From: Natronococcus sp. A-GB7
Lineage (GTDB): Archaea > Halobacteriota > Halobacteria > Halobacteriales > Natrialbaceae
Assembly: GCF_029688865.1 (NCBI RefSeq)
Contig: NZ_JARUKV010000011.1
Location: 1 to 64,000 of the forward strand
Direction of reading: 5' to 3'
Length of the DNA stretch: 64,000 nucleotides
A program made the position numbers and the translations under genes. Under the pieces are notes generated by a model. The model did no database searches. It was not told where the DNA came from and worked only from the letters and a program-made list of their open reading frames with translations. Positions 18,500-23,423 of the stretch are shown here, one piece after another (within the stretch, counting starts at the first letter, position 1; every line of letters begins with the position of its first letter).

Positions 18500-18696
18500 T
18501 CGCCGTTCGTCGCAGGTAGGTTCGACAACCGACGAATCGGAGTGTCACGATCGAAACTGTGTTTTACCGGTATGAGGGGTCCTCGGGCGGATTTTTCGAC
18601 GATCGGCTGCGGTCGGCCGGCTGACGGGGAAAATCCGGCGCAACATCGACGGAAATGGGAGCCCTTTTAGCCCCATCGGAGCACGATACAGACGAG

Positions 18697-19959
<1,263 letters not shown>

Positions 19960-20040: not shown

Positions 20041-20304
20041 GATCTGCCGGTGCTCGAGGAGCAGTTTAGGTGGAGAATAGCCTCGTTTCGGCCGGACCGC
20101 CGGAGTACGCGGTTCCGTTTTAGAGACGACATAGTGACGGGCTTTAAAAATCAGGACGAATTCTTCCTTATAGAAACCGTATTACCCGGGTAGATACGTT
20201 CGACAACTCCGAAGATCGCTCTCGTATCTATCAGTTTCGTCGAGTGTTACGAGAGATATAGAGAAGATTATGAAGTACCATCGAAGAGACGTCGGAACGA
20301 AGAC
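20041..20304. other. Non-coding, AT-richer spacer before the deacetylase pair
   Basis: 264 bases between the icd terminator and the first small upstream ORF. The stretch 20140-20180 (gctttaaaaatcagg, ttccttatagaaacc) is unusually AT-rich and contains two TATA-like candidates. The sequence around 20255-20280 (gagatatagagaagatt) lies 25-50 bp before the small ORF and could be its promoter. I see no gene in it. Confidence 0.4.
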
Positions 20305-20466
20305 ATGATACTCGAGGGAGTACACAATCGAATCTCGACGGGGGGACGCTACCGCTCGGTCGGTGTCGACGAAACCGAGCGAATCGAGGACAGCGCGTAC
20401 GGGCGACGAACGGGCGCGGGGATCGGGGGATCTCCGAGGCGATCGTCGACTCGAGGTAAGCCGTAG
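20305..20466 (+). CDS. 53-residue conserved upstream ORF, copy 1
   Basis: An ATG-started ORF of 53 codons whose TAG stop is followed immediately by the ATG of the deacetylase (TAG|ATG). The peptide is basic and Arg-rich (GRYRS near residues 14-18, TRGKP at the end), unlike the acidic haloarchaeal norm. An ORF of exactly the same length precedes the second deacetylase. By my alignment 26 of 53 residues are identical with no gaps, and at least nine identical residues use different third-position bases, which points to protein-level constraint. It could be a leader peptide for translational coupling or a small partner protein. Family unknown. Confidence 0.5.
   Translation: MILEGVHNRISTGGRYRSVGVDETERIEDSAYGRRTGAGIGGSPRRSSTRGKP
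20353..20381 (+). promoter_or_regulatory. Inverted repeat inside upstream ORF, copy 1
   Basis: cgctcggt (20353-20360) and accgagcg (20374-20381) are perfect 8-bp inverted repeats with a 13-base loop. An equivalent stem with two compensated base pairs occurs at the same place in copy 2 (21747-21775). It may be an RNA structure in the leader. Confidence 0.35.
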
Positions 20467-21567
20467 ATGCGCCGACGGAACCTGCTGGCGGTCGCCGGGG
20501 TCACCGCAGCCGGCGGCGCCGCTACCGCGTACGGAGTCTCACAACGCGATTCGGGTGACGGCGGCGACAGCGACGACAGCCGGAACGAGTCGGACGGAGA
20601 CGGGGACGACGAGTCGGAAAGCGAGGAGTCGAGCGACGAGTCGGCAGACGAGGAAGCCGACGACGAACAGGCCGACGACCTCGAGGAACGGCTCGAGGGC
20701 AGCGAGGGGATGCTCGTGTTCACGTACGACGACAGCCCGATCGAGGACTACACGCTCACCTACCAGGTCCACCAGGAGTACGACGTTCCCGGCTGCGTCG
20801 CGGCCTGTCCTGGCTGGATGCAAGATGACGGCGGCGGCGAGTACCTTTCTCCGGACCAGCTTCGCGAGATGCACGACGACGGCTGGGGGGTCATGTCCCA
20901 CACGTACTACCACCGCGCGCTCGGGAAGATCCAGCTAACCGAGACGGCTCAGGAGGGCGACGACCGCATCTACGTCGAGGCCAACCGCCACGCGGATATC
21001 GAGGATGATCCGCTGGTGATCTTCGACGACGAGAACAGAACGACCGCGACCGTCGCCGGCGGTGGGAGCGACTCCACCGGGGAGTACGTCGAACTCGCCG
21101 AACCGCTCGAGGAGACGATCGACGCCTCGGGCCACGTCAGGTATCCGGAGGAGTTCATGCAGGACATCCTCGACGAGACGGACGCGCAGCTCGAGGAGTG
21201 GGGACTCCCGGTGCTCGGGTTCGTCTACACGTACACGCGATACCACGGGCTCATCGAGGATCTCGTTCGGGACCACTACGAGGCCGTCGCGAACCACCGC
21301 TTCGGCGGCGGCCACAACGAGATCGACGGCCTCGATCCGACGGCGATGCAACGGATGTACGTCGAAACCGATCGCGCGACTGAGGAGGAGATCGAGGAGT
21401 TCATGCAGACCGCCGCCGAGGACGACGTGCTCTCGATCGTCGGCGGCCACTCACACTTCGAGACGATCACCGAGGAGCGACTCCGGTACACGATCGAGAC
21501 CGCTCTCGAACACGACCTCGCGATCGTCACGATGGAGGAGGCGCTCGGCGAACTCGAACTCCGTTAA
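20467..21567 (+). CDS. Tat-exported polysaccharide-deacetylase-like protein, copy 1
   Basis: 366 residues. The N-terminus MRRRNLLAVAGVTAAGG is a twin-arginine-type signal, followed by an acidic linker (residues ~30-78). The catalytic domain shows CE4-like motifs: FTYDDS with Asp88 and Asp89, and SHTYYHR with His145 and His149 (HTxxH), so the metal triad Asp-His-His appears intact. A beta-rich insert of about 70 residues (roughly 155-225), absent from typical deacetylases, separates these motifs from GFVYTYTRYHG. The substrate is unknown; removal of acetyl groups from a surface or extracellular glycan is inferred. Tandem paralogue of the next gene. Confidence 0.75.
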   Translation: MRRRNLLAVAGVTAAGGAATAYGVSQRDSGDGGDSDDSRNESDGDGDDESESEESSDESADEEADDEQADDLEERLEGSEGMLVFTYDDSPIEDYTLTYQVHQEYDVPGCVAACPGWMQDDGGGEYLSPDQLREMHDDGWGVMSHTYYHRALGKIQLTETAQEGDDRIYVEANRHADIEDDPLVIFDDENRTTATVAGGGSDSTGEYVELAEPLEETIDASGHVRYPEEFMQDILDETDAQLEEWGLPVLGFVYTYTRYHGLIEDLVRDHYEAVANHRFGGGHNEIDGLDPTAMQRMYVETDRATEEEIEEFMQTAAEDDVLSIVGGHSHFETITEERLRYTIETALEHDLAIVTMEEALGELELR

Positions 21568-21698
21568 CACCGATTTCGACGATCACTTTGGCTCGGCCGT
21601 GTCGACGGATCAACGTCAGTCCTCTCGGGCTCGACGAACGCCACGAGAGAGATGGAGAGCATTATAACGTCGCGCAGGTGAACTGTCTGAACAAGGAT
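21568..21698. other. Spacer between deacetylase copies
   Basis: 131 bases from the stop of copy 1 to the second small ORF. The frame of the small ORF stays open upstream to an ATG at 21588, but similarity to copy 1 begins only at 21699. AT-rich gcattataacg (about 21659-21669) lies 30-40 bp before 21699 and may be a promoter element. Confidence 0.35.
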
Positions 21699-21860
21699 AT
21701 GACATTCCAGGGGGTGTGCAGTCGGATCTCGAAGGGGGAGCGATACCGTTCGACCAGAACCGACCGGCTCGAACGAACCGAAGACGGCGCGAACGGGCGA
21801 TCAACGGGTACCAGGACCGAAGCCGCCTCGAATCGGTGGCCGACTCGAGGTGAACCGTAG
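21699..21860 (+). CDS. 53-residue conserved upstream ORF, copy 2
   Basis: Same length and position as the ORF before copy 1, again ending TAG directly before the deacetylase ATG. Conserved blocks with copy 1 are GV..RIS.G.RYRS (residues 5-18), ER.ED.A.GR.TG (25-37) and TRG.P (49-53). Synonymous differences at the shared codons (for example GGA/GGG, GTA/GTG, CGC/CGT, GAG/GAA) suggest selection on the peptide rather than only on the DNA. The longer ATG at 21588 is not favoured because copy 1 has no counterpart. Function unknown. Confidence 0.5.
   Translation: MTFQGVCSRISKGERYRSTRTDRLERTEDGANGRSTGTRTEAASNRWPTRGEP
21747..21775 (+). promoter_or_regulatory. Inverted repeat inside upstream ORF, copy 2
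   Basis: cgttcga (21747-21753) pairs with tcgaacg (21769-21775). Relative to copy 1, pairs three and seven of the stem changed on both sides (C-G to T-A and G-C to A-T), so pairing is kept although sequence changed. Two pairs are weak statistical evidence. Confidence 0.35.
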
Positions 21861-22937
21861 ATGCGCCGCCGGAATCTGCTGGCGGTCGCCGGGGTCACCG
21901 CAGCCGGCGGCGCCGCTACCGCGTACGGAGTCTCACAGCGGGATACGGGCGAAGACGGTGACAGCGACGACGGTCGGAACGAGTCGGACGGAGACGGGGA
22001 CGGCGAGTCGGCGGACGAGGAAGCCGACGACGAACGGGCCGACGACCTCGAGGAACGGCTCGAGGGCAGCGAGGGGATGCTCGTCTTCACCTACGACGAC
22101 AGCCCGATCGAGGACTACACGTTCACTTACCAGGTTCACCAGGAGTACGAGGTTCCGGGCTGTCTCGCCGTCTGCCCCGGTCTGATGGAACAGGATTCTG
22201 ACGCGTATCTCGAACCCGATCAGCTGGTCGAGATCTACGAGGCTGGGTGGACCGTCATGTCCCACACCTACGAACACCGGGCGCTGGGACACACGCCTCT
22301 AACCGAAGCTGCAGACGAGGGCGACGACCGGGTCTCCGTCGAGTGGGGTCGACACGGCGAGTTCGAATCGGATCCACTCGTCGTGTTCGACGACGACGGC
22401 GCCTACAACACGACGTCGGTCGCCGGCGGCGGCGGCACTGATTCGACCGATGCGTACGTCGATCTCGAGGAGCCCCTGAGCGAAACGGTCAGCGCCGACG
22501 GCTATCTCAGACATCCGGAGGAGTTCGTACAGGATATCCTCGATCGGACCGACGACCGACTCGCCGAGTGGGGGATCGACGTCACCGGGTTCGTCTATAC
22601 GTACGACCGCTACCACGGCGTCGTCGAGGAGATCGTCCGCGATCAGTACGACGCCGTCGCGAACCATCGGTACGGCGGCGGCCACAACGAGATCGACGGC
22701 CTCGACCCGACGACGATGCAACGGATGTACATCGAGACCGACAAGACGAGCGAGGACGAGATCGACGAGTTCGTGCAAACCGCTGCGGACGAGCGGGTTC
22801 TCTCGATCGTCGGCGCCCACTCCCAGTTCGAAACGTTCACCGAGGAACGCCTCGAGTACACCATCGAAGCCGCCCTCGAGAACGATCTGGCGATCGTCAC
22901 GCTCGACGAGGCGCTCGCGGAGCTGGGGTACCTGTAA
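21861..22937 (+). CDS. Tat-exported polysaccharide-deacetylase-like protein, copy 2
   Basis: 358 residues with the same plan as copy 1: MRRRNLLAVAG Tat-type signal, acidic linker, FTYDDS with Asp79/Asp80, SHTYEHR with His135/His139, a beta-rich insert (roughly 145-215) and GFVYTYDRYHG. The C-terminal half contains NHRYGGGHNEIDGLDPTTMQ, almost identical between copies. The 62 bases coding most of the signal peptide are identical to copy 1, while the mature parts differ at many codons. This suggests conversion or export-signal constraint. Not an exact duplicate, so the two may act on different glycans. Confidence 0.75.
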   Translation: MRRRNLLAVAGVTAAGGAATAYGVSQRDTGEDGDSDDGRNESDGDGDGESADEEADDERADDLEERLEGSEGMLVFTYDDSPIEDYTFTYQVHQEYEVPGCLAVCPGLMEQDSDAYLEPDQLVEIYEAGWTVMSHTYEHRALGHTPLTEAADEGDDRVSVEWGRHGEFESDPLVVFDDDGAYNTTSVAGGGGTDSTDAYVDLEEPLSETVSADGYLRHPEEFVQDILDRTDDRLAEWGIDVTGFVYTYDRYHGVVEEIVRDQYDAVANHRYGGGHNEIDGLDPTTMQRMYIETDKTSEDEIDEFVQTAADERVLSIVGAHSQFETFTEERLEYTIEAALENDLAIVTLDEALAELGYL

Positions 22938-22994: not shown

Positions 22995-23423
22995 ATGATC
23001 GAAACCCGGGTCGTCGACTCGGACACCGAGCGCGAGGACGCCCTCGCCGTTCGCCACGCGGTGTTCGTCGAGGAACAGGGCGTCGACGAGGACCTCGAGT
23101 ACGACGAACACGATTCCGAGGCCGTCCACTTCGTCGCCTACGACGGAGACGAGCCCGTCGGCGCCGCACGGCTCCGGGAGCTCGAGGACGGCGTCGGCAA
23201 GGTCGAGCGGGTGGCCGTCCTCGAACCGCGACGAGGTGAGGGGATCGGTCGGGAGCTGATGGCCGTCCTCGAGGGGCGGGCTCGAGCGGACGGGTTCGAC
23301 GAGCTGAAGCTCCACTCCCAGACGCACGCGGCCGACTTCTACGCGGAGCTGGAGTACGACCGATACGGCGAGCCGTTCGAGGAGGCCGGCATTCCCCACG
23401 TGAAGATGCGAACGGAGCTGTAG
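22995..23423 (+). CDS. GNAT N-acetyltransferase, ElaA-like
   Basis: 142 residues. VRHAVFVEEQGVDEDLEYD near the N-terminus is typical of ElaA-type GNAT proteins. The acetyl-CoA binding motif A is VERVAVLEPRRGEGIGREL (R-R-G-E-G-I-G, residues ~75-82), and LHSQTHAADFYAELEYDRYG is the C-terminal strand-helix. Cytoplasmic acetyltransferase with unknown acceptor. It follows the second deacetylase by 57 bp but has no evident functional link. Confidence 0.85.
   Translation: MIETRVVDSDTEREDALAVRHAVFVEEQGVDEDLEYDEHDSEAVHFVAYDGDEPVGAARLRELEDGVGKVERVAVLEPRRGEGIGRELMAVLEGRARADGFDELKLHSQTHAADFYAELEYDRYGEPFEEAGIPHVKMRTEL

Follow-up and report, generated by a model that had tools for sequence, protein, structure and literature searches.

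In the window (the whole 64,000-nt stretch of DNA analysed here), two tandem deacetylase genes lie between an isocitrate dehydrogenase gene and an acetyltransferase gene, and each is preceded by a 53-codon open reading frame whose stop codon directly adjoins the deacetylase start. We call these short upstream frames uORF A and uORF B. The features of the locus are as follows:

18655..19959, + strand: isocitrate dehydrogenase (NADP), upstream syntenic anchor (TIGR00183; synteny in six genomes)
20260..20271, + strand: predicted promoter of deacetylase A, a purine-rich BRE-like stretch and a TTAT box at 20268-20271
20305..20466, + strand: uORF A, 53 codons, ending TAG/ATG
20453..20457, + strand: GAGGT, Shine-Dalgarno-like, within the final codons of uORF A
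20464..20466, + strand: TAG stop of uORF A, adjoining the ATG of deacetylase A
20467..21567, + strand: deacetylase A, Tat-type N-terminus (MRRRNLL), Polysacc_deac_1 (Pfam PF01522, E 1.2e-09)
21654..21665, + strand: predicted promoter of deacetylase B, TTAT box at 21662-21665
21699..21860, + strand: uORF B, 53 codons, ending TAG/ATG
21847..21853, + strand: GAGGTGA, Shine-Dalgarno-like, within the final codons of uORF B
21861..22937, + strand: deacetylase B, tandem paralogue of A, Tat-type N-terminus (Pfam PF01522, E 2.8e-09)
22995..23423, + strand: GNAT-family acetyltransferase, downstream syntenic anchor (synteny in six genomes)

Both deacetylases score above the Pfam cut-off for Polysacc_deac_1 (38.6 and 37.4 bits against 23.1). 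The family is expanded in the genus: a genome may have several copies, either in tandem or dispersed, and copy number varies between close species. Since the stop of each uORF adjoins the deacetylase ATG, uORF and gene inevitably share their phase. The ATG of uORF A is the first and only ATG of its predicted leader, in phase and open as far as the TAG, and the TTAT of the deacetylase A promoter starts 37 nt 5' of it. At the Shine-Dalgarno-like site of uORF A, the orthologs in G001 and G006 read GAGGTGA.

An initial annotation of this DNA had pointed out the two 53-codon ORFs with their TAG stops and TAG/ATG junctions, all of which are present, and had described the peptides as Arg-rich, which holds for both (they are rich in Ser/Gly as well). 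It had also counted 26 identical residues among the 53, a figure that we reproduce in a gap-free alignment (27/54 counting the stop), and had read this as conservation of the peptide itself. The identity is, however, no higher than DNA-level relatedness gives: when A and B are compared in the other two forward frames, each yields 25/53, the three reverse frames yield 24-26, and the 51 bases that differ fall on the three codon positions as 17/16/18. DNA similarity between the A and B units holds at a constant 1394-nt offset from about 100 nt 5' of the ORFs. Promoter, leader and gene have been duplicated together as a tandem unit, and this duplication is the reason why the two uORFs are equal in length. 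There is a caution here for small ORFs in general, as an identity of about 50% between paralogues is no proof of a conserved peptide, and in this instance just reflects related DNA. The deacetylases themselves differ unevenly along their length, dS between A and B being 0.18 in the first 75 codons and 0.70 in the remainder, while A and its G006 ortholog show the reverse pattern (0.49 and 0.19). Judging from these values, gene conversion involving 20467-20690 and 21861-22060 is likely, the 5' end of A apparently having been overwritten by B in this lineage.

The syntenic order icd-deacetylase-GNAT, with one or two deacetylases, occurs in G001 (Natronococcus amylolyticus), G002 (N. jeotgali), G003, G004 (N. 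pandeyae), G005 (a Natrialbaceae MAG) and G006 (Natronococcus sp. A-GB1), and comparison of the orthologs leaves little of the peptide. Over the ten pairs formed by five close copies (A and B of the window, A and B of G006, and G001), dN/dS of the uORFs is 0.78-1.64; it is 0.99 between G003b and N. jeotgali copy 2 and 1.82 between G003a and N. jeotgali copy 1, giving 0.78-1.82 over all ortholog pairs, and there is no excess of third-position changes. Values near 1 are what the initial annotation itself had named as speaking against its proposal. With the same method and genomes, dN/dS of the deacetylases is 0.12-0.31 wherever any synonymous change is seen, and between copy A of the window (G000a) and that of G006 (G006a) the uORF has diverged by 0.20, as much as the deacetylase body has at its synonymous sites (0.19). 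A dN/dS of about 1 combined with a divergence equal to that of deacetylase synonymous sites argues that selection is not on the peptide. Codon use in the uORFs is not coding-like, GC3 being close to GC1 and GC2. In 125 genomes of the family, a peptide profile search recovered the five close copies in three genomes and nothing else convincing; the remaining matches are weak (E at least 3.6e-4) and lie in genomes of other genera, and at the orthologous loci of G002-G005 the profile has no match. The uORF peptides match no Pfam or NCBIfam family. On the combined evidence of the codon-position counts, the control frames, the dN/dS values and the profile search, we rejected a conserved peptide.

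What recurs is the arrangement, which, unlike the peptide identity, exceeds chance. We compared 11 leaders at the icd-dac-GNAT locus from seven genomes of the genus, and these are unalignable between lineages. All 11 have a TTAT box (TTAC in two, G003a and jeo1) followed 33-37 nt on by an ATG, and the position of the box is conserved in orthologs as AAAAGCTTAT, GAAGATTAT and GAGCATTAT. No other ATG separates the predicted transcription start from the uORF ATG in 10/11 leaders, and most leaders have no second ATG at all; in jeo2, an additional ATG lies 11 nt 5' of that of the uORF and out of phase with it. In 11/11 leaders the frame that begins at the uORF ATG runs without interruption to the TAG beside the deacetylase start, while frame 1 is closed in all of them and frame 2 in all but two. 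The uORFs are 53 codons long in five leaders, 30 in two, 48 in two, and 56 and 63 in one each. These five length states are all whole codons, so indels between the lineages respected the phase. The initial annotation had named loss of the frame upstream of orthologous genes, or indels breaking it in relatives, as observations that would refute its proposal, and neither is what we see. The TAG is invariant throughout and forms the sole invariant run of the last 60 nt, where only 5% of the other columns are invariant. The distance from stop to start is 0 nt in 10 leaders and +1 nt in N. jeotgali copy 1, where the junction reads TAG-A-GTG: with one extra base and a GTG start, this copy keeps the open frame and the adjacency and has lost the phase. 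It also carries frameshifts in the gene body and is possibly a pseudogene or an assembly error. A Shine-Dalgarno-like motif lies inside the uORF at about -14 to -8 (GAGGTGA, GGTGATC or a weaker GG-containing form), and the G at -12, at its core, is invariant in 11/11 leaders.

Several observations concern deacetylase copies outside this set. The TAG/ATG junction is mostly missing from copies elsewhere in these genomes and in other genera. In N. jeotgali, another two copies, each on a small contig (L045 and L046), keep TAG/ATG with a 44-codon frame and an AT-rich leader; their promoters are less clear, the spacing differs and one base is an N. The N. jeotgali copies L073:1757-4291, L041, L045 and L046 are broken by frameshifts and are either pseudogenes or draft-assembly errors. 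A plasmid search returned only deacetylases of less than 60% identity. When the genome was scanned for the junction motif GGTGANNNNTAGATG, uORF B and a single further site were the only matches, and the string as such is hence no genome-wide signal.

How much of this could be accident? Phase combined with openness over five lineages would have a chance of about 5e-5 if the lineages count as independent, and shuffled leaders yield a first ATG with an open, in-phase frame of 24 codons or more in only 4-10% of cases each. Both figures overstate the case, since the lineages have common ancestry and the leaders were delimited only once they had been inspected. The deacetylase tree (with row jeo46 left out) is too poorly resolved for counting gains and losses of the uORF. 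The chance figures favour selection on the layout over accident, short of proof. One could still argue that each uORF is an open frame arising by accident in GC-rich 5' leader sequence, that only the promoter, the Shine-Dalgarno motif and the TAGATG context are real, and that the deacetylase is initiated directly. The neutral evolution of the peptide and the flat GC by codon position are what such a frame would show, a Shine-Dalgarno-like motif is present, and a single leader is open by accident in 21-56% of cases. But phase, openness, position of the first ATG and adjoining TAG recur across five leader lengths, direct initiation gives no reason for an invariant TAG, and most deacetylase copies elsewhere in these genomes do without the junction; we therefore regard a chance frame as unlikely, though it deserves to be taken seriously. 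We give much less weight to a functional small protein acting as partner, chaperone or regulator of the exported deacetylase, the partner or chaperone having been one of two suggestions in the initial annotation. The 26/53 identity of the tandem copies and the likely translation of the ORF, as judged from its sequence, point toward such a protein, but neutral dN/dS in every pair, the lack of a peptide homologue at the G002-G005 loci or of a Pfam or NCBIfam match, and a length ranging from 30 to 63 codons make it very improbable.

Two further explanations leave the peptide aside as an independent product. If the TAG were read through, the result would be an N-terminally extended deacetylase, with the TAG kept as an amber decoding signal, and it is true that no other stop occurs at the junction and that in 10/11 leaders the TAG shares the phase of the deacetylase. 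However, the best this genome offers to the pyrrolysyl-tRNA synthetase model TIGR02367 is 29.8 bits against a cut-off of 178, the extra base at the junction of N. jeotgali copy 1 would destroy such a fusion, the sequence of the supposed extension is evolving neutrally, and the Tat n-region begins at the deacetylase ATG, which has its own Shine-Dalgarno motif. With no PylS above the cut-off and the phase lost in one ortholog, we rejected a Pyl or read-through fusion as scarcely credible. Alternatively, the uORF could be one part of a structured leader or attenuator, either riboswitch-like or sensing an amino acid. In most leaders, folding predictions leave the Shine-Dalgarno region largely base-paired (probability of being unpaired 0.15-0.42), and translation of the uORF could unmask it. 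Against this, the leaders cannot be aligned between lineages and keep no run of regulatory codons, and accessibility is not below the leader mean in every case; with no Rfam match, a known RNA family was set aside, and with folds that vary between lineages and accessibility that is only weakly low, so was a conserved RNA structure masking the start. We consider an attenuator highly improbable. A leaderless start of the deacetylase itself was also rejected, as inspection of the leaders by eye revealed no AT-rich promoter near its start (box near -26).

We think it probable, from the way these leaders are built, that each 53-codon ORF is a regulatory uORF, or leader cistron, that feeds the deacetylase by termination-reinitiation and whose peptide is disposable. 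The other suggestion of the initial annotation, a leader that couples translation to the exported enzyme, is thereby retained, and it draws support from the kept start position, the open phase, the adjoining TAG and the internal Shine-Dalgarno-like motif, while the small partner or chaperone is disfavoured by neutral dN/dS and the absence of profile matches at the G002-G005 loci. The usual distance from promoter box to transcription start was used to place the mRNA start, which is predicted to lie about 7-12 nt 5' of the uORF ATG. Ribosomes would load at this short predicted leader, translate the 30-63 codons of the uORF, terminate at the TAG and restart at the adjacent deacetylase start with the help of the internal Shine-Dalgarno motif. 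The peptide would have no function of its own, and what would matter is translating up to the stop. The box itself was recognized by haloarchaeal promoter rules, in which the TATA consensus is TTWT (PMC4983044). Why a uORF should be needed at all may possibly be explained by unmasking of the paired start region, as the predicted folds would allow. Several points weigh against termination-reinitiation. Ribosomes might initiate directly at the deacetylase by way of the Shine-Dalgarno motif, with no need of the uORF. Further such points are the weak TTAC box of G003a and jeo1, the out-of-phase upstream ATG of jeo2, codon use that is not coding-like, and the Arg-rich composition of the peptides, compared with the low-pI uORF peptides listed for Haloferax (PMC4983044).

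A broader reading would be that an exported-enzyme gene has been expressed through a dedicated ribosome-delivery uORF for the depth of the genus, with selection on start, phase and stop only and never on the peptide; to this we assign about even chances. The locus offers a clean natural test of an open question in prokaryotic translation, namely whether short upstream ORFs have ribosome delivery to the following gene as their sole purpose: leader states of 30, 48, 53, 56 and 63 codons, and one start displaced by a single base, allow selection on architecture to be told apart from selection on the peptide.

The initial annotation had known of no described system with this arrangement, but it is already known in kind, from mycobacterial coupled leaderless small ORFs (PMC4633059) and from stop-start coupling in Haloferax (PMC6728339, PMC10666635). 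Mycobacterial leaderless small ORFs show coupling to the following gene at a frequency above chance (Shell et al. 2015, PMC4633059), and sometimes placement and linkage alone are conserved and the sequence is not. There, as predicted here, a small unannotated ORF runs from the transcript end to the start of an annotated gene. The mycobacterial junction is an RTGA overlap in another frame, whereas here TAG/ATG adjoins in phase, and the mycobacterial starts were mapped experimentally, in Bacteria, whereas ours are predicted, in Halobacteria. Closer in organism, being of the same class, are the gene pairs of Haloferax volcanii, which share a near-zero stop-start distance and a Shine-Dalgarno motif inside the upstream frame (PMC6728339, PMC10666635). 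Reinitiation in Haloferax needs that near-zero distance: a gap of 13-14 nt reduces it clearly, and at around 22 nt it no longer occurs (PMC10666635). An SD within the upstream frame usually assists it, to a variable extent (PMC6728339). In the Haloferax pairs both members encode proteins, and most pairs overlap by 1 or 4 nt (ATGA, TGATG), although spacings of 0 to +6 nt also occur; at the present locus the place of the upstream gene is taken by a short ORF whose peptide drifts, and the spacing is 0 nt. Short ORFs in the 150-250 nt leaders of haloarchaeal genes are also on record from Haloferax volcanii dRNA-Seq (PMC4983044), and the portion of that report used here gives them 15-31 residues and low isoelectric points and describes no stop-start junction, in contrast to the 30-63 codons, Arg-rich peptides and adjoining gene found at the present locus. 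The general idea of a short ORF that merely delivers the ribosome has been stated in a 2025 review (PMC12548453), and the locus described here would be an archaeal case of it.
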